Source: a virus
Reading direction: 5' to 3' (one strand)
Virus record (IMG/VR): IMGVR_UViG_3300028925_003584
Location: 1-25,676 of that record
DNA: 25,676 nt
Shown here: positions 3,924 through 19,912 of the stretch, piece after piece
Numbering within the stretch: position 1 is the stretch's first letter
Layout of the letters: every line of letters begins with the position of its first letter
The notes under the pieces: generated by a model
Seen by the model: only the letters and a program-made list of their open reading frames with translations
Told to the model about the DNA's origin: nothing
The model's database searches: none
Made by a program: the position numbers and the translations under genes

Positions 3924-4862
3924 TTAAACTTGGTCTGTGTCGGACAAGACACAAACAAGATTTTCAGGACGGAAAAGTTTTACGCCATAACGAGCAGTAA
4001 CAACATATTCATCACGTTGTTTGTCTTTATTAAACTCGCTATCAACTTTAGGCATTTGTCGCCATGCACCAATAAATGGTAGAACATCACTAGCGGCTGA
4101 GAAAAACATATTTGCTTTACCAGCAGCAGTAGTTATACCACCAATTGCTTCATTAGCATCAGCTAAATTATTGCTGACATAAACATCAAAGCCAAAGATA
4201 TTTTTTACAAACCGCATACCTGTCGCTATACCTGAAGAAACAACACCTTCCCACATTGGGTTATTGGATATATTAGCAATATTTGAAAGTGTATTAATTG
4301 TATATTCAACAGAAGGATCAACAATTGCAACCAAGTCTGTGTCTGGAACATTAGCTGTCTTTAGGCTATGTCTTGCTTTAGCAAAATCAGCAACCGTAAA
4401 GACTTCGTTTGTTCCTGTAGCACAGAATCTATGGTCAGCACCGTTAATTGCATTAACATTTGCTGAAGTTTGTGCAGATTCTAAACCAAGAATTTTAGCC
4501 TCAACCTGCTCCATAATAGCACGTTGTTGTTTAGGAACAAACTGAGAAACCAGTTGGTTCATATAGTACATATCTTGTTTAGCTTTTTCAGTTATGTAGA
4601 TACCAGAAGCCAAGTACTCTGTAATTGTAAAAGTGAATTGACCAGTATCCAAAGGTGCATAACTAATTTGATCGTTTTCAGTATAGGTTTCTACTTGGGC
4701 TTGCCCGATAGAAGGAACCTTAAACGTATCGCCATCAGGGAATTCAGTCATCCAGTTAACATAGCTTTGAGCCATGAGTTCGTCTTCAAGAACATCCTTT
4801 AGTTGAGAAGACCAGACTTCACTCCGAGTAAGATGACCTACGTTACTAGTAGTCATTGCCAT
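3924..4862 (-). CDS. Major capsid protein
   Basis: This 312-aa protein has the size, position and composition of a T7-type HK97-fold capsid subunit. The N-terminal arm is followed by VPSIGQAQVETYTENDQISY, an E-loop-like region, then the helix KQQRAIMEQVEAKILGLE. The C-terminal half (AIVDPSVEYTINTLSNIAN, then MRFVKNIFGFDVYVSNNL, then ARYGVKLFRPENLVCV) matches the P-domain and A-domain layout of these capsids. It follows the scaffold gene directly. The GAGGT ribosome binding site is about 8 nt before the ATG. A strong promoter ahead of the scaffold gene probably supplies the high expression needed. Confidence 0.85.
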   Translation of the reverse strand: MAMTTSNVGHLTRSEVWSSQLKDVLEDELMAQSYVNWMTEFPDGDTFKVPSIGQAQVETYTENDQISYAPLDTGQFTFTITEYLASGIYITEKAKQDMYYMNQLVSQFVPKQQRAIMEQVEAKILGLESAQTSANVNAINGADHRFCATGTNEVFTVADFAKARHSLKTANVPDTDLVAIVDPSVEYTINTLSNIANISNNPMWEGVVSSGIATGMRFVKNIFGFDVYVSNNLADANEAIGGITTAAGKANMFFSAASDVLPFIGAWRQMPKVDSEFNKDKQRDEYVVTARYGVKLFRPENLVCVLSDTDQV

Positions 4863-4882: not shown

Positions 4883-5623
4883 TTAAGCGTAAAATTTTTC
4901 AGACCCAAGCTCTTCCCTAGAAGTAAGTATTTGATTCTGAATTTCAGGAGTCCAATACTTACGTGGGTTTTCTTTTCTAATTATATCATAGTACTTTTTA
5001 GTACCAACTTGAGCCGTCTGTATTTGTGTAACATTTTGTAAACTCTCAGTATTAACTGAAGAGGTTGTTACACTTGCGTTTTTTTGAATATCAGATTCAT
5101 TTAATCCGACAGTATTGAAGAAAGCAGATGGACTTGTTTTGGCTACGTCCTCAAGAAAACCAGGATTAACTCCTAACTCTTGAGCTTTGTTTACTAGCCA
5201 ATTACCAGCCTTATCTCCAAACATTCCTACTAACTTATTGTCTACAGCTTTTAGATTTTCTTGTTTGGTTTCTTCACTACGAGTTGACTCTAAGGTCTTT
5301 TTTACCAACTCTTCTACTTTGTCTTCGCTTAATGAAGGAGTGGTATTCTCCCTCTCTTGCTGGACGGAATTTTTAGATTCTTCTTGAATTTTAGCTAGAA
5401 CTTCTTCTGAGGTCAGACGTTTATCTAGCTCTTCCCGTAACCCACTTAGTTCAGATTTAAGCTGATCTATAAAAGTATCAGCTTCTAATTTACCTTTTGC
5501 TAAATCTTCAGCAGTTTTAAATTTACGTTCATCTCCAACTAAAGTATTAAAAACACCCGGTTGTTCAACTTCTTGTGTGTTCTCACTTGGGGTAACAGCG
5601 GCAGTTTGGTCAAATGCAGACAT
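4883..5623 (-). CDS. Capsid assembly scaffolding protein
   Basis: This 246-aa protein is highly charged, Glu/Lys/Gln-rich and mostly helical, with an extended coiled-coil-like region (about residues 45-135, for example IDQLKSELSGLREELDKRL). It lacks a globular core. The C-terminal part has a compact basic segment (KKYYDIIRKENPRKYW), a likely capsid-binding end. Position between portal and capsid genes is the conserved place for scaffold in T7-like phages. It has an AAAGGGA ribosome binding site and is the first gene after a consensus sigma70 promoter. Assigned by composition and synteny rather than a sequence motif. Confidence 0.8.
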   Translation of the reverse strand: MSAFDQTAAVTPSENTQEVEQPGVFNTLVGDERKFKTAEDLAKGKLEADTFIDQLKSELSGLREELDKRLTSEEVLAKIQEESKNSVQQERENTTPSLSEDKVEELVKKTLESTRSEETKQENLKAVDNKLVGMFGDKAGNWLVNKAQELGVNPGFLEDVAKTSPSAFFNTVGLNESDIQKNASVTTSSVNTESLQNVTQIQTAQVGTKKYYDIIRKENPRKYWTPEIQNQILTSREELGSEKFYA

Positions 5624-5658
5624 AGACTTTGGTCCCTTTCTATGTTAGTTCTATACTA

Positions 5659-5687
5659 ATTATAACAAATTATTTTTTAATTGTCAA
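5659..5687 (-). promoter_or_regulatory. Perfect sigma70 promoter for scaffold/capsid genes
   Basis: Read on the minus strand: -35 TTGACA (5687-5682), 17-nt spacer, -10 TATAAT (5664-5659), with an extended -10 TG one base upstream (TGTTATAAT). Both hexamers match consensus exactly. Transcription would start near 5652, leaving a leader of about 30 nt with AAAGGGA before the scaffold ATG at 5623. The -35 overlaps the end of the 84-aa gene. The block TGTTATAATTAGTA (5667-5654) is identical to that of the promoter at 10158-10186. Confidence 0.8.
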
Positions 5688-5924
5688 TGGTAAAAGTTCT
5701 TGTATATCTTTTATTGCTCTATTATACCCATTTTGATCTGCTTGAAAGTATGCCCAAGATGGATTTAAATAATCTATTTCTTTTTGTTTGCTTACTTTAT
5801 TTTCTAGTATTGTGTTTAACTTATCCCATAAAGAGCTTGCATTTAAAAGATAGTCTTTAAACCTCTCCTTCTCCTTCTGATCCTTCAGGTGGGAGAGCCA
5901 TAGGGTCGATAGGTTGTTCTTCAT
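5670..5924 (-). CDS. Small protein between portal and scaffold
   Basis: This 84-aa protein overlaps the portal gene end by 68 bp in another frame. The start at 5924 is chosen because GGAG lies 6 nt upstream; an earlier ATG at 5951 has no such site. The product is helical and charged (LKDQKEKERFKDYL), followed by NPSWAYFQADQNGYNRAIKDIQELLPL. Small proteins of this kind occur at this place in several marine podoviruses. No function is known to me. Confidence 0.6.
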   Translation of the reverse strand: MKNNLSTLWLSHLKDQKEKERFKDYLLNASSLWDKLNTILENKVSKQKEIDYLNPSWAYFQADQNGYNRAIKDIQELLPLTIKK

Positions 5925-7689
5925 TCGGTACTCCAGACATTTCATTTGCAAACGCTTGGTTTGAATCTACATCTCTTTGTGCAGAGTTAACTAACTTTTG
6001 AGTTTCTTGTTGTTCAAAGATACGTACATTTTCTTTATAGATACCATACTTTTCTAAATCAAGCACCTCTTCAATTAACTGAGCCATTTTCTTTCCAGAC
6101 AAATGAACATTAATAGAAGGGTCTTGTCCAATAGCCGATCCTGCAAGTTGAGTTAAATTCTGAAGTAAGTTAGCTTTAGCTGCAAAATGTCTAGCTCCTA
6201 CAGGGTAAACTCTACCATTAGCAGTTAAATCATCCTTTGTAATATTTTCAAATATCTGGACTCCTAATGCGTCATCAATAGATTTTACAACATCTTTAGA
6301 GTTTAAGTTACGCCTTGCAACGGATAACATATCGTTAAGCAATGGCTCTACAAACATTTGTTCAAAGTAATTAATTTTATTTTGGAAGATTCTTCCAGAA
6401 GCATTCTGTAATGATTGAACTTCAAAGGCTGTTTTTTCACCGGGAGTACGCATACCCATAGCTTGTTTAGGTGCGCCTGCCATTTCTTCCATACGGTTTT
6501 CCATTACCGCAATTTGTGTATCTGCATTAAGAGCAGTAGGATCAGGACGTATAAAATCAACATTGCCATCATCCCCCACATAAATTCTTTCATTAGGGCC
6601 GTAGTCAAAGTCTTCTACGTAACCTTGAATTTTCATAACAGGGTGAGCAATTAAATCAAATACGTCAGCTTTTAAATTTTCTAAATGGTCAATACGGTAT
6701 TGCATACCTACAAGGTTATCTAGTGGCCCCATTGCATATAAGTTATCAGGGCGTAACCTCCAACCAACATGACGTACAATTGATTTACGCCAAGTAGGAT
6801 TAGGTATCTTACGTAAAATATGTTTACGATCTACGATAGTAATGATATGATCTTTATATAATTTGTTTTCGTTCTGATCATATATGTCTCCTATAAATTC
6901 TAGAAGCTCCACATAACCAGACTGATAATAATGATGGATAGAGCTAAAGCCGTCAATTTGGTATGCTTCGGACTTTGCTGTATCTTGCTCACTAGCTGTT
7001 TGTACTTTTTGTCTATTGTTAACCACCAATTTAAAAACATCTTCTAAATACCCCTTTTCTGGATTCTCATCTAGTTCAACTTTAAGCTCCCCTAAAGTTT
7101 TAATTGATCTTACTATCTTTGGTGCAGAATCAAAATTATTTGCTAAAGGATTAAACACTAAATCATAAGGGCTAATTCTTACAACCTTTGGTCCTACAAA
7201 ACCTGGGAACTCTTCTCCTGTTTCTTCATCTACACGGGATTCATCATAGTAATCTACAGTTGCAAATGCATTACCATAATCAATAAAATCGTAAGCTAGT
7301 TGTGACAGGACGTTACGGAAATTACCTTGACGGGTTTTATTTTTTAAGTAAGATTCAATAATCCTGCGCTTATCACCATCTGCACTTTCACGATCATCAG
7401 CTTCATAGTTTAACCAATTGTCATTAGGAAACAAAGCAGCCATATAGTTAGCGTGAAGGTTATCTCTAATCTGTGTAAGTTTTGGAGTAGTAGTGCTATT
7501 CTTCCAAGGGAGTTTATTATTACTTGTATCTTTTGTACTGGTTGCAAAAAGATAGTTGCGTAGCTCTTTCTTTTCATCTACCCAAGCATTGCGTAACATA
7601 TTCCATTCTACAAATTGATTCGCAATTGCTTCTGCAAATTTATCTACGCCATCAATAATATCTACAATGTCTAAAGTTTTTCCTGCCAT
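5857..7689 (-). CDS. Portal (head-tail connector) protein
   Basis: This 610-aa protein forms the dodecameric portal through which DNA enters the head and to which the tail attaches. It is somewhat longer than T7 gp8 (536 aa). The N-terminus is helical (FVEWNMLRNAWVDEKKELRNY). The middle contains NLHANYMAALFPNDNWLNYE and the AYDFIDYGNAFATVDYY region. The C-terminal half carries the conserved stretch around PKQAMGMRTPGEKTAFEV and NKINYFEQMFVEPLLNDML, typical of podovirus portals. The acidic tail ends EGSEGEGEV. It lies directly after terL, with GGAG 5 nt before the start. Confidence 0.85.
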   Translation of the reverse strand: MAGKTLDIVDIIDGVDKFAEAIANQFVEWNMLRNAWVDEKKELRNYLFATSTKDTSNNKLPWKNSTTTPKLTQIRDNLHANYMAALFPNDNWLNYEADDRESADGDKRRIIESYLKNKTRQGNFRNVLSQLAYDFIDYGNAFATVDYYDESRVDEETGEEFPGFVGPKVVRISPYDLVFNPLANNFDSAPKIVRSIKTLGELKVELDENPEKGYLEDVFKLVVNNRQKVQTASEQDTAKSEAYQIDGFSSIHHYYQSGYVELLEFIGDIYDQNENKLYKDHIITIVDRKHILRKIPNPTWRKSIVRHVGWRLRPDNLYAMGPLDNLVGMQYRIDHLENLKADVFDLIAHPVMKIQGYVEDFDYGPNERIYVGDDGNVDFIRPDPTALNADTQIAVMENRMEEMAGAPKQAMGMRTPGEKTAFEVQSLQNASGRIFQNKINYFEQMFVEPLLNDMLSVARRNLNSKDVVKSIDDALGVQIFENITKDDLTANGRVYPVGARHFAAKANLLQNLTQLAGSAIGQDPSINVHLSGKKMAQLIEEVLDLEKYGIYKENVRIFEQQETQKLVNSAQRDVDSNQAFANEMSGVPNEEQPIDPMALPPEGSEGEGEV

Positions 7690-7704
7690 AATAGCTCCAA
7701 AAAA

Positions 7705-9255
7705 TTATCCGTAAGAGACTCCACCGAATCTAGAATTAAAAATAGGAACAACATTTCCCTTATGTTTATTCCTCATTCCCTGTGCTGGGGGTACTGCAAT
7801 TTCTATAACAGCGGCTAAAGCATCTTTAACGTCATCATGCGGAGGTTTATCAGACATTAATTCATCTTCTAAAATCTGGCAATTTCCTCCGTAGTAATGC
7901 CAAATAGATAAGTTATCATACCGGGGTTCGAGGATAGCGCGTATTCTTTCTTCCTTTGACCCTTGATGCCGAGTAGGGGAATGCTCATCAATACTAAGGG
8001 ACAAACCATTTTGTTTAATATATGAGTATTTTAACTCTTGTACAATTGCTTTTTGTGCTGCAGTTACTTCAGCACGTAGTTTTCTAAAGTCCCATTTAGT
8101 ATGGGCTTCTAAAATTTCTTTGTAGTAATCAATAATCTTTTCAGTTTTAAATCTAATAATATCTAAAATATAATAGTTATTATAACTATCAACACCAATA
8201 ACAACAATAGCTGTACTGTCTGCACGTTTACTTAAACTATATGCAAAGTCAATAGAAGCGAATACATTTAAACGCTCTGACTTATGATACCATACTCCAC
8301 CACTACGTGTCAAGAATTGTTTATCATAGTATTGAAATTTGTCAGATGATATACCTGAACCTTCTGGGTTATTAGGATTGTTGTAGTACTGTGCATAGAA
8401 TTGTGTTCTGTCTAGATACTTCCCTCTTTTTTGAGATAAGATAGTACGATCAAATCCAAACCATTTACCGTCACCACGTTGTTGTCTAGGCCAACAAAAC
8501 TCACCTGTACCATCTCCTAAATCTTCTACTTGACGTTCAAATTTTTCATATAAAGATTCGTAATATAACACTTCTCCTTTATCATTATATATTTCACATT
8601 CCATTTCTGTCAAGTCATTGTACAAATCTTTAGGATGGTATCGAGTACCTACAACCCATTCTTCAGCTTCTGTTCCTTCAATCGAAGATAATAAAGAGTA
8701 CTGCGATTTGACTTTGTTTCTTCCTTCATTGGTATAGGCGTTTTCATATACAACGACATCATCCATAACGGCAACATCACAGTGTAGCCCAGTAATACTA
8801 GTAGTAAGGCCAGCAGTAAAAATAGATGGATCACGAACGCCCTCTTTTTTCCTTGACGGGTGGTCTAAAGATATCTCTCCGTTAGTCCACTTCTCTCGTT
8901 TAGCTTCTTCTTTGTTAACCATTTCAGGCCAATAACGTCTATATATTTTAGATGTAAGAATATCTTTTATAAACTTTAATTGTTTTTCAGCTAGGTTAGC
9001 TGTAGAAGAAATAAAAAGAATACGATGATCTGGGTGATTAGTTAAGTACCAAGCAGCTTTGTATGCTATCAATCTTGACTTTTGATGATCTCTAGGGAGC
9101 AGGGTTAATTGGTATTGTTTTTTATTTTGCCTGGTCCACCATTGGCAAAGCTCTTTATGTACTTGACCTAATACAGTTTGAGGTGCAATAAGATGGATAA
9201 AAGAAACTAAACTTTGTTCTGCTGCTATTTTAATTTCATCTTTAGGGTCATTCAT
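7705..9255 (-). CDS. terL: Terminase large subunit
   Basis: This 516-aa protein is the ATP-driven DNA packaging motor and headful or end-cutting nuclease. A deviant Walker A, LLPRDHQKSR (K59, S60), is followed by the ATPase segment RILFISSTANLAEKQLKFIKDIL. Walker B is VAVMDDV with D165/D166. The C-terminal RNase H-like nuclease shows its acidic residues at D336 (ASIDFAYS), E396 (RAEVTA) and D474/D475 (PPHDDVKDALA). Length and motif order fit the T7 gp19 class. The start overlaps the TerS stop by 8 bp, the normal terS-terL arrangement. Confidence 0.9.
   Translation of the reverse strand: MNDPKDEIKIAAEQSLVSFIHLIAPQTVLGQVHKELCQWWTRQNKKQYQLTLLPRDHQKSRLIAYKAAWYLTNHPDHRILFISSTANLAEKQLKFIKDILTSKIYRRYWPEMVNKEEAKREKWTNGEISLDHPSRKKEGVRDPSIFTAGLTTSITGLHCDVAVMDDVVVYENAYTNEGRNKVKSQYSLLSSIEGTEAEEWVVGTRYHPKDLYNDLTEMECEIYNDKGEVLYYESLYEKFERQVEDLGDGTGEFCWPRQQRGDGKWFGFDRTILSQKRGKYLDRTQFYAQYYNNPNNPEGSGISSDKFQYYDKQFLTRSGGVWYHKSERLNVFASIDFAYSLSKRADSTAIVVIGVDSYNNYYILDIIRFKTEKIIDYYKEILEAHTKWDFRKLRAEVTAAQKAIVQELKYSYIKQNGLSLSIDEHSPTRHQGSKEERIRAILEPRYDNLSIWHYYGGNCQILEDELMSDKPPHDDVKDALAAVIEIAVPPAQGMRNKHKGNVVPIFNSRFGGVSYG
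8584..8613 (-). promoter_or_regulatory. Possible internal sigma70 promoter inside terL
   Basis: On the minus strand TTGACA (8613-8608) and TATAAT (8589-8584) both match consensus, with an 18-nt spacer. The site lies inside terL, in the sense direction, and could add transcripts for portal. There is no extended -10 and it does not share the 14-nt block of the other two late promoters, so it may be a coincidence of coding sequence (codons for LTEMECEIYN). Confidence 0.35.
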
Positions 9256-9778
9256 TTTTAGAATCTTTAACCAAATGTAGCCCTAGGCGTGCAGCATCTT
9301 CACCTATTTCAGACTCTAGTTTAGCTGCAATCTTTAATTCTCTGTGGAGTTCTTCCTTGCTTGGACGGCCCCGTTTGTTATCTGACTTCTTCCATTGCCC
9401 TTCTGCTAAAAACTTAGCGGCATGGAATTTAGATTTACCATCTATAGCTTCCTGTGCGACAAGTCTAATTCCTTTAGAGCGTAAAGAAACTTCTAACTCT
9501 ATGGGCCAATCCTCAATAAAAGTTTTAATTGCAGCAGAAGATTTAATTTTAATCCAATGATTCCAAGAACCAAATGCTTGCATAGCAAACTCATATTCAG
9601 TTGGGTCTTCACATTCTATGTAGAGCTTTTTTAAACTAGGGAGAATACCTTGAGAGTCTTCATCTTTTAAACTCCACAAAGGTTCTAAGTCTTTAATATA
9701 AAACTCACGAAATAAAGACTGAGTCCTATACCTTCCTTGAACATCTTTTAAAACTTTTTTGTGATCTGGGTAGATCAT
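9248..9778 (-). CDS. terS: Terminase small subunit
   Basis: This 176-aa protein should bind the packaging site and feed DNA to TerL. The first part is helical with several Trp residues (FGSWNHWIKIKSS). The C-terminal part has a basic KRGRPSKEE motif at residues 135-143, followed by a helix; this is typical of small terminase subunits of T7-like phages, where it sits next to a DNA-contacting region. It lies immediately upstream of terL with an overlapping stop/start. The start overlaps the upstream stop (ATGA). Synteny carries much of this call. Confidence 0.75.
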   Translation of the reverse strand: MIYPDHKKVLKDVQGRYRTQSLFREFYIKDLEPLWSLKDEDSQGILPSLKKLYIECEDPTEYEFAMQAFGSWNHWIKIKSSAAIKTFIEDWPIELEVSLRSKGIRLVAQEAIDGKSKFHAAKFLAEGQWKKSDNKRGRPSKEELHRELKIAAKLESEIGEDAARLGLHLVKDSKNE

Positions 9779-10149
9779 ACTTGGATTCCTTTTAGTTTAA
9801 CTGATGTTATTATACTATAGTAAATAATATTCTGGTCATCTTCAACAGTTATAAATAAAGTTTTAGCACCTTCTGAATCTATATAAACTTCTAAGATTTC
9901 TTTAATTTGTACTGGCCCACCTCTATAAAAAGCACATTGTTTTAAATAAATCATCATATTAAAGATAGTCATAGCTTTGGCTGCATTGACTTTATCCGCT
10001 TCTATTAAAGGCTGAATAGCTTCTTTTTTGAAACAAACCATACGTATTGGAGCATCTTTACTAAACGCAGCAGCCGAACAAAAAACAAGAAACAGTAATA
10101 GGATAAATGTCAAGCATATCTTAAATAAACGCGAATCAAAGTTTTGCAT
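9775..10149 (-). CDS. Small secreted/periplasmic protein, first gene of the late operon
   Basis: This 124-aa protein begins with a clear export signal: basic start (SRLFK), hydrophobic core of about 15 residues (ICLTFILLLFLVF), then a small-residue cleavage region (CSAAAFSKDA). The mature part of roughly 93 residues has two Cys (C39 and C72) that could form a disulfide in the periplasm. No family is recognised. Candidates are a superinfection-exclusion or envelope-modifying protein, by analogy with other exported phage proteins; this is inference. The ATG lacks a Shine-Dalgarno and lies about 9 nt from the -10 of a strong promoter, so the mRNA may be leaderless. It couples to terS through ATGA. 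Confidence 0.65.
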   Translation of the reverse strand: MQNFDSRLFKICLTFILLLFLVFCSAAAFSKDAPIRMVCFKKEAIQPLIEADKVNAAKAMTIFNMMIYLKQCAFYRGGPVQIKEILEVYIDSEGAKTLFITVEDDQNIIYYSIITSVKLKGIQV

Positions 10150-10157
10150 GATTACTA

Positions 10158-10186
10158 ATTATAACATGAAGACACTAAGAAGTCAA
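10158..10186 (-). promoter_or_regulatory. Strong sigma70 promoter for the leftward late operon
   Basis: On the minus strand: -35 TTGACT (10186-10181), 17-nt spacer, -10 TATAAT (10163-10158), with an extended TG (TGTTATAAT). The start point would fall about 10149-10153, essentially at the ATG of the secreted protein gene. The 14-nt block TGTTATAATTAGTA (10166-10153) also occurs in the promoter before the scaffold gene. Confidence 0.75.
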
Positions 10187-10436: not shown

Positions 10437-10566
10437 CACATATTCACTAATTATATAATATAAAAATATATATTATCTTTTCTGCATATGATAATGGTTC
10501 GCACCTACACATATTCATAAATTATATAATATAAATTTATATATTATCTTTTTTGAATGTGAAAAT
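10437..10566. repeat. Two 59-bp direct repeats, each an imperfect large palindrome
   Basis: Units at 10437-10495 and 10508-10566 match at about 51 of 59 positions by eye and are 71 bp apart. Both start CACATATTCA, contain ATTATATAATATAAA and end near TATATTATCTTTT. In the second unit the ends CACATATTC and GAATGTG are roughly inverted and the centre ATATAAATTTATAT is a perfect 14-bp palindrome. They may bind a protein or form part of the origin. Confidence 0.65.
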
Positions 10567-10605: not shown

Positions 10606-10634
10606 ATATCATAGGGCTAGCCTATTGATATAAT
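10606..10634 (+). promoter_or_regulatory. Extended -10 rightward promoter inside a palindrome
   Basis: TGATATAAT at 10626-10634 is an exact extended -10 (TGnTATAAT); no good -35 is seen. It overlaps a 26-bp imperfect palindrome at 10606-10631: outer arms ATATCA and TGATAT, inner TAG/CTA with one extra base, and a GCTAGC core. An overlapping palindrome suggests a repressor or activator site on the early promoter. Transcription would start near 10641, about 277 nt before the first early gene. Confidence 0.5.
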
Positions 10635-16410: not shown

Positions 16411-18032
16411 TGGAACATCCACGCACTAACGAAAAGTTTATTAAACATATAGCCTGTGATCATTGTGGTAGCTCAGATGCTAACGCTGAATATGAACATA
16501 GTTATTATTGTTACAGTTGTGAAACTTATATACGAAAGGATACTGATGATATGAATGTTGTTGATATTGTCAATCATGTACAAGACCCTACTCTATTTGA
16601 CATTGAAGGAACATATGTTGGTCCTCTTAATGATAGGAAATTAACTAAAGATACCGTTGCACACTTTGATGTTAAGTTAGCTGTTACGAATGGAGTTGTA
16701 GTAAAACACTACTACCCATACTGTACCTCTGAGGGTGATAAGATAGCTCATAAAATACGCAACGTATCAGAGAAAGCTTTTATTACTGAGGGTAACATAA
16801 AGAATGCGGTTCTCTTTGGACAAGATAAGTTTACATCTGGGGGTAAGTATATAACTATTTGCGAAGGTGAGATAGATACCTTGTCTGTGTTCCAGATGAA
16901 TGGGTCTAAGTTTCCTACTGTTGGTGTACGATCAGCTACCTCTGCTTATAAAGATTGTAAGAAAAACTTTGAGTGGTTAGATAGTTATGGTCAGATAGTT
17001 ATTTGTATGGATAACGATGACCCAGGAAAAAAAGCAGCCAAAGCTATAGCCTCTTTGTTTCCTAAAAAATCTAAGATTATTAAACTTAAATACAAAGATG
17101 CAGGAGAATATTTAACTAAAGATAAAACGCAAGAGTTTAGCAGTGCATGGTGGGCGGCCGAACAATATAAACCTGATGATATTCTATCTGGGTTTGATAA
17201 AATGTGGGAGATAGCCCAACAACCAAGAGCTATTGCGGTCTTTGAATACCCTTGGAGTAAGGTTAATAAACTAACTTATGGTATTCGTAGCTCTGAGTTT
17301 GTGGTAATTACTGCTGGCTCTGGTATGGGTAAGACACAAGTGACAAGGGAGATAGTTCACAACTGTTTAAAATCTACAGATAAAAATGTAGGTGTGATAT
17401 ACTTAGAAGAAACGGCATGGGAAACTGCACATGGTGTAGCCTCTGTTGAATGTGATAAGCCTCTTCACTTGCCTGATGTACACTGTACTGAAGATGAGAA
17501 GCGTGAGGCATTTCTAAAAACATGGGGTACTGATAGGCTACATACATTGAATGATAGTTGGAGAGATAACAGTCTTGATTACATTAGTGATAAGATAAGG
17601 TACTTTGCTAAAGGATTAGACTGTAAACTAATTGTTCTTGATCACATAAGCTTTATGGTTTCTAACCAGAAGGGCGATGAAAGGAAAATGTTAGATGAAA
17701 TTGCACATAATCTCAAAGCACTTACAGTCGAACTTGATATATGCTTACTCGCAGTCTCACATACCAAGAGACAAAACACAAAACCTCTTGAAGAGGGCGG
17801 CCAAACAAGTCTCTCAGATTTACGAGGAACAGCAGGGATTGGACAACTTGCAAACATCGTTATTGGATTGGAACGAAACGGACAGGCAGACGATGAGCGT
17901 GAGAGGCACACAACTCTCTTGCGAGTGTTAAAGAATAGATACAGTGGTTTAACAGGGCCAACCTCATACTTGCACTATGATCAGTTTACTGGTAGACTTA
18001 GTGAGGTAGAAGAAAAGGAAGAAAATGTCTAA
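16410..18032 (+). CDS. Bifunctional primase-helicase (T7 gp4-like)
   Basis: This 540-aa enzyme unwinds DNA ahead of the polymerase and makes primers. The N-terminal zinc-binding part uses C16, C19, C34, C37 (CDHC, CYSC). The TOPRIM primase core has CEGEID (E152, E154) and the metal pair D201/D203 in DNDDPGKKA. The RecA-like helicase has Walker A GSGMGKT (303-309), Walker B LIVLDH (D411) and the LRGTAGIGQLANIVIGLERN segment corresponding to motif H4. It is close in length to T7 gp4 (566 aa). The ATG at 16410 is chosen (TGATG); a GTG three bases upstream is possible. A second start near 16551 has its own AAAGGA site. Confidence 0.9.
   Translation: MEHPRTNEKFIKHIACDHCGSSDANAEYEHSYYCYSCETYIRKDTDDMNVVDIVNHVQDPTLFDIEGTYVGPLNDRKLTKDTVAHFDVKLAVTNGVVVKHYYPYCTSEGDKIAHKIRNVSEKAFITEGNIKNAVLFGQDKFTSGGKYITICEGEIDTLSVFQMNGSKFPTVGVRSATSAYKDCKKNFEWLDSYGQIVICMDNDDPGKKAAKAIASLFPKKSKIIKLKYKDAGEYLTKDKTQEFSSAWWAAEQYKPDDILSGFDKMWEIAQQPRAIAVFEYPWSKVNKLTYGIRSSEFVVITAGSGMGKTQVTREIVHNCLKSTDKNVGVIYLEETAWETAHGVASVECDKPLHLPDVHCTEDEKREAFLKTWGTDRLHTLNDSWRDNSLDYISDKIRYFAKGLDCKLIVLDHISFMVSNQKGDERKMLDEIAHNLKALTVELDICLLAVSHTKRQNTKPLEEGGQTSLSDLRGTAGIGQLANIVIGLERNGQADDERERHTTLLRVLKNRYSGLTGPTSYLHYDQFTGRLSEVEEKEENV
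16535..16553 (+). promoter_or_regulatory. Internal ribosome binding site and start inside the primase-helicase gene
   Basis: AAAGGA at 16535-16540 lies 10 nt before an in-frame ATG at 16551 (residue 48). Starting there would give a helicase without the zinc-binding part, like T7 gp4B, which starts at residue 64 of gp4A. It is visible as sequence; use in the cell is inferred. Confidence 0.45.
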
Positions 18033-19883: not shown

Positions 19884-19912
19884 TTGACACTTAAATTAGT
19901 ATTGAGTATACT
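19884..19912 (+). promoter_or_regulatory. Strong sigma70 promoter before ssb
   Basis: -35 TTGACA (19884-19889), 17-nt spacer, -10 TATACT (19907-19912). Only one base differs from consensus. The start would fall near 19919, about 30 nt before the ATG at 19949, with GAAAGGA between. It lies in the only sizeable gap within the replication genes. Confidence 0.75.

Follow-up and report, generated by a model that had tools for sequence, protein, structure and literature searches.

Promoters of structural genes in described phages

In the usual textbook account, T7-like phages turn to a polymerase of their own for the capsid genes. T7 itself carries separate promoters, phi9 and phi10, just before its scaffold and capsid genes, both read by the phage's own RNA polymerase (RNAP). 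SIO1 was described without an RNA polymerase, in a group with two opposed gene arms (PMC6775973). Siovirus phages (SIO1, ICBM1, P12053L) are RNAP-less and have two late promoters per genome with a 17-nt spacer, a common extended core (TGTATAATAGTCTTAACAAG...) and leaders, one upstream of the late operon and one downstream of the capsid gene. Vibrio phage ICP2 (Icepovirus, Zobellviridae), in which we found no RNAP, has an annotated, consensus-like sigma70 promoter before gene 17, at the scaffold position (16733-16760; spacer 16, TAGAAT, no TG extension). Methylophilales phage MEP401, which is in culture with its OM43 host, carries TTGACT-N17-TATAAT sites with TG, one of them at the junction between the portal and a small gene, where the ATG lies exactly 6 nt after TATAAT and the transcript is thus predicted to be leaderless. 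The MEP401 paper mentions neither promoters nor an RNA polymerase. Leaderless phage mRNAs are known from the cI gene of lambda and the cI and cro genes of PY54, where a strong sigma70-type promoter places the ATG at the transcript start (PMC4488713), and phage transcripts have been called often leaderless (PMC5312081). We found no paper on leaderless transcripts in podoviruses in a literature search of partial coverage, and novelty is claimed provisionally.

Gene map of the window

The window, the whole 25,676-base IMG/VR virus record analysed here, is a fragment of a podovirus related to the Zobellviridae (SIO1, ICBM1, MEP401, ICP2). It contains a Zobellviridae-like gene set, with homologous portal, terminase, capsid and polymerase genes. 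A near-identity DNA search of phages with the window returned no match. Its portal matches phages of this kind (P12053L, ICBM1-3, SIO1, CRP-4, MEP401, ICP2) at less than 60% identity, so it can be placed inside the Zobellviridae only tentatively. The genes form two opposed arms, a leftward one with terminase, portal, scaffold and capsid and a rightward one with replication and nucleotide genes. The features relevant to transcription are:

10626..10634, plus strand: candidate promoter for the rightward arm, in the divergent region; extended -10 TGATATAAT, poor -35 (3/6)
10158..10186, minus strand: extended -10 sigma70-type promoter before the first late gene, TTGACT-N17-TATAAT
10153..10166, minus strand: second copy of the 14-nt core TGTTATAATTAGTA
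9775..10149, minus strand: first late gene, encoding 124 aa with a hydrophobic N-terminus; 35-38% identical to homologues in L002 and L003
9248..9778, minus strand: probable terminase small subunit; phrog_8035 (without curated function), named from its position beside terL
7705..9255, minus strand: terminase large subunit
5857..7689, minus strand: portal / head-tail adaptor
5670..5951, minus strand: small ORF between portal and scaffold, start codon uncertain
5659..5687, minus strand: extended -10 sigma70-type promoter before scaffold; TG at 5667-5666, predicted +1 near 5652
5654..5667, minus strand: first copy of the 14-nt core TGTTATAATTAGTA
4883..5623, minus strand: scaffold protein gene; phrog_7931, same position as the annotated scaffold in ICBM1 and MEP401
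3924..4862, minus strand: major capsid protein gene

Two strict promoters in the structural arm

An earlier note had placed two promoters with the same 14-nt core before the scaffold gene and the late operon, and the sequence bears this out. The scaffold promoter pairs TTGACA (5687-5682) with TATAAT (5664-5659) and the late promoter pairs TTGACT (10186-10181) with TATAAT (10163-10158), with a spacer of 17 in both and a -35 agreeing with TTGACA at 6/6 and 5/6 positions, respectively. Both are extended -10 promoters, with a TG one base upstream of TATAAT, and the two copies of TGTTATAATTAGTA are the only exact ones in the window. The length of this match is not itself evidence because the window holds 32 repeated 14-mers, some of them overlapping. 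Eight letters of the core are the sigma70 extended -10 consensus and six (the N and TAGTA) are informative, and matches with up to three mismatches are near chance (16 found versus 10.9 expected). What is above chance is that the only two zero-mismatch sites of the strict motif, defined as TTGAC[AT]-N14-TGN-TATAAT, both precede structural-arm genes and are both kept in relatives. The search that the earlier note had proposed, for further core copies with a -35 17 nt upstream, was run across the window and returned the same two sites. A TTGACA-18-TATAAT at 8613-8584 lacks the TG and lies inside the terminase gene. We also considered TGATATAATTAGAA at 4975-4988 (TTGGTA, spacer 16), before the capsid gene, as a third member and rejected it because relatives do not have it.

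These two sites can be compared with those of the described systems. Like ICP2, the window has a consensus-like sigma70 promoter before the scaffold and no RNAP that we could find, but its site has the 17-nt spacer, TATAAT and the TG. Like Siovirus, it has two late promoters sharing an extended core, although the core and the positions differ. The motif itself is that of MEP401, but transcripts from the window's scaffold promoter would carry a leader with a Shine-Dalgarno sequence. The location of a promoter just before the scaffold recalls T7, where the reading enzyme is the phage's own. The predicted start at an ATG recalls lambda and PY54; there the genes encode repressors in temperate phages and the starts are mapped, whereas in the window group the operons are late and structural and the starts are predicted.

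Conservation of the promoter design

Counted over 387 related loci, the strict motif has 195 occurrences with a 17-nt spacer, against 0-3 for each of the other spacers between 10 and 24. We also searched the portal-scaffold junction (portal stop -60 to +540, sense strand) of 104 dereplicated relatives and found the motif, with at most one mismatch, in 40, always with spacer 17. The controls gave 2 matches on the antisense strand (spacer 18) and 0 in equal stretches inside the portal gene. The other 64 of the 104 relatives have no strict site at the junction, a count taken on strict sites alone. After the -10 hexamer, 21 of 28 sites have T at position 6 and 22 of 28 have A at position 7, which fits a -1T/+1A initiator; the -16 region is TRTG-like, with T in 24 of 28 sites.

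The sequence TTGACA-N17-TGTTATAAT is kept before the scaffold in L001-L005, L034 and G001, a 69-kb contig holding a close relative of the window phage (portal 94% identical). The late promoter is kept in G001 and L003 too. The G001 contig (L087-L090) resembles two related phages joined end to end near 32 kb, because late and early gene sets occur twice, and is probably a chimeric assembly.

The position of the promoter around the portal-scaffold junction varies among relatives. It lies directly after the portal and before the small gene in the MEP401 group, the L035 group and L006-L021. In L269, L272, L274, L275, L280, L283 and comparable loci, the promoter appears to fall within the small gene, whose reading frame, as judged from the sequences, continues past the motif. 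In the window group it sits at the small gene's end, where L-T codons give TTGACA; the -35 of the window's scaffold promoter is the 3' end of the small ORF. In relatives further away, the L-T codons read TTGACC or TTGACA and no -10 follows. The group seems to retain very strong host promoters at one functional place, with shifts in their exact position.

Start codons close to the predicted transcript start

An ATG opening an ORF of at least 40 codons follows TATAAT by 6-8 nt in 17 of 41 non-redundant strict promoters, a set reduced by sequence similarity alone, so that related small genes still supply many of the 17. The distance is exactly 6 nt in 12 of them; from the rate at offsets 14-57, about 1.1 such ATGs would be expected in a 5-nt interval. 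This layout predicts leaderless mRNAs. MEP401 gp43 and gp21 are annotated from the ATG of the leaderless layout, which is also present at several terS genes (L149, L258, L153, L128). The first late gene of the window has its ATG at 10149, 8 nt after TATAAT, a spacing also found in G001 and L003, and a leaderless or nearly leaderless mRNA is therefore predicted for the late promoter. A Shine-Dalgarno sequence cannot fit downstream of its predicted start. Unlike the late promoter, the scaffold promoter is followed by a predicted leader of about 29 nt with a Shine-Dalgarno-like AGAAAGG.

Alternative readings of the two sites

The earlier note had interpreted the identity beyond the hexamers as a deliberately conserved promoter class read by host sigma70 in place of phage-RNAP promoters. 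The sigma70-type promoters serving structural genes withstood comparison with relatives; the conserved 14-nt late core did not. In a within- versus between-genome comparison of the two promoters that covers only four genomes and from which we draw no statistic, identity beyond TGTTATAAT decays from 6/6 in the window to 4/6 in G001 (TATAATTAGTC and TATAATTAGGA) and 2/6 in L003 (TATAATTAGCT and TATAATAGATT). Furthermore, strict sites also precede gp07 and gp21 in the early arm of MEP401, so the promoter type is not late-specific and cannot alone explain timing. We therefore regard as unlikely a special late class whose discriminator is read by a phage-encoded regulator or sigma factor. As such a class would have it, both G001 sites and the late site of L003 retain the TAG that follows TATAAT, and the two Siovirus late promoters have 31 nt (GTGTATAATAGTCTTAACAAGTCTCCCCTGC) in common that run into the transcript. 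However, the motif is a plain sigma70 consensus, and none of the window proteins searched, many small ORFs without a match among them, was recognisable as a sigma factor or regulator.

A phage RNAP encoded outside the window, with the sigma70-like sites being early promoters or unused leftovers, is very improbable. With 25.7 kb in the window and a genome size of probably about 37-43 kb, some genes lie outside, and against an RNAP gene among these there is only the analogy with G001 and the named relatives. A profile search for single-subunit RNAPs (PF00940; positive control, T7 RNAP, E = 1e-109) gave no match in the window, G001, ICBM1, MEP401, SIO1, ICP2 or CRP-4, and tblastn with T7 RNAP agreed. 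The earlier note had named such a gene as grounds for abandoning its reading; none turned up in the close relative or the five named ones. G001 covers the region that the window lacks; its late proteins there have matches in tail and internal virion families, except for one 979-aa protein without a match. The own RNAP and cognate promoters of the Autographiviridae (T7-type) were not found, and strong selection keeps both the spacer and the sequence of the sites. Chance in AT-rich DNA is harder still to credit. Loose promoter-like matches in the window do equal those in shuffles (73 found versus 76 expected) and repeated 14-mers are common, but strict matches prefer spacer 17 (195 versus at most 3) and sit at homologous junctions.

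Probable host-type promoters for structural genes

The reading of both sites as sigma70 promoters is strongly supported, as the earlier note had proposed in preference to phage-RNAP promoters: no RNAP was found and the design recurs among the group's members. What the sequence shows is a motif whose spacer is fixed at 17 nt and which returns at homologous junctions, in phages where no RNAP could be detected. From this we infer use by the sigma70 of the host, whose sigma70 preference is assumed, with transcripts predicted to start about 7 nt after TATAAT and the first late gene to be translated leaderless. Very probably, both sites are promoters for host RNA polymerase carrying its housekeeping sigma factor, the one at 10158 starting the late operon and the one at 5659 acting as an internal booster. 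The former would start leftward transcription of the late genes, and the latter would add scaffold and capsid transcripts, the job of phi9 and phi10 in T7. The delay of late expression may be due, most simply, to the order in which genes enter and to their copy number after replication.

More tentatively, a large RNAP-less marine podovirus group may express its late structural operons from host-consensus promoters, with the start point fused to the start codon, leaderless late mRNAs and a promoter rebuilt at several places near the portal-scaffold junction; we consider this about as likely to fail as to hold, perhaps slightly more so. A widespread group of marine relatives appears to keep the host enzyme throughout.

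Other promoter-like sequences

The 31-nt GTGTATAATAGTCTTAACAAGTCTCCCCTGC of SIO1, ICBM1 and L335 reaches well into the predicted transcript and has two copies per genome, one preceding the late arm and the other following the capsid gene (L091, 39865 and 29354, minus strand; L093, 8589 and 37489, minus strand; L335, 232 and 8738, plus strand). The shorter TATAATAGTCTTAAC has one copy in 35 further loci. Siovirus also has a TTGACA-N17-TATTAT with TG between terminase and portal (L091, 33212-33240, minus strand; L093, 1525-1553, plus strand), a junction different from that of the window group. In the window, the divergent region between the arms (10449-10558) contains two AT-rich near-copies, AATTATATAATATAAA and TATATATTATCTTTT, about 71 nt apart. 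A TTGACA-N17-TATACT at 19884-19912 (plus strand), between the genes for the DNA polymerase and a Gp2.5-like ssDNA-binding protein, is a possible internal promoter of the rightward arm.
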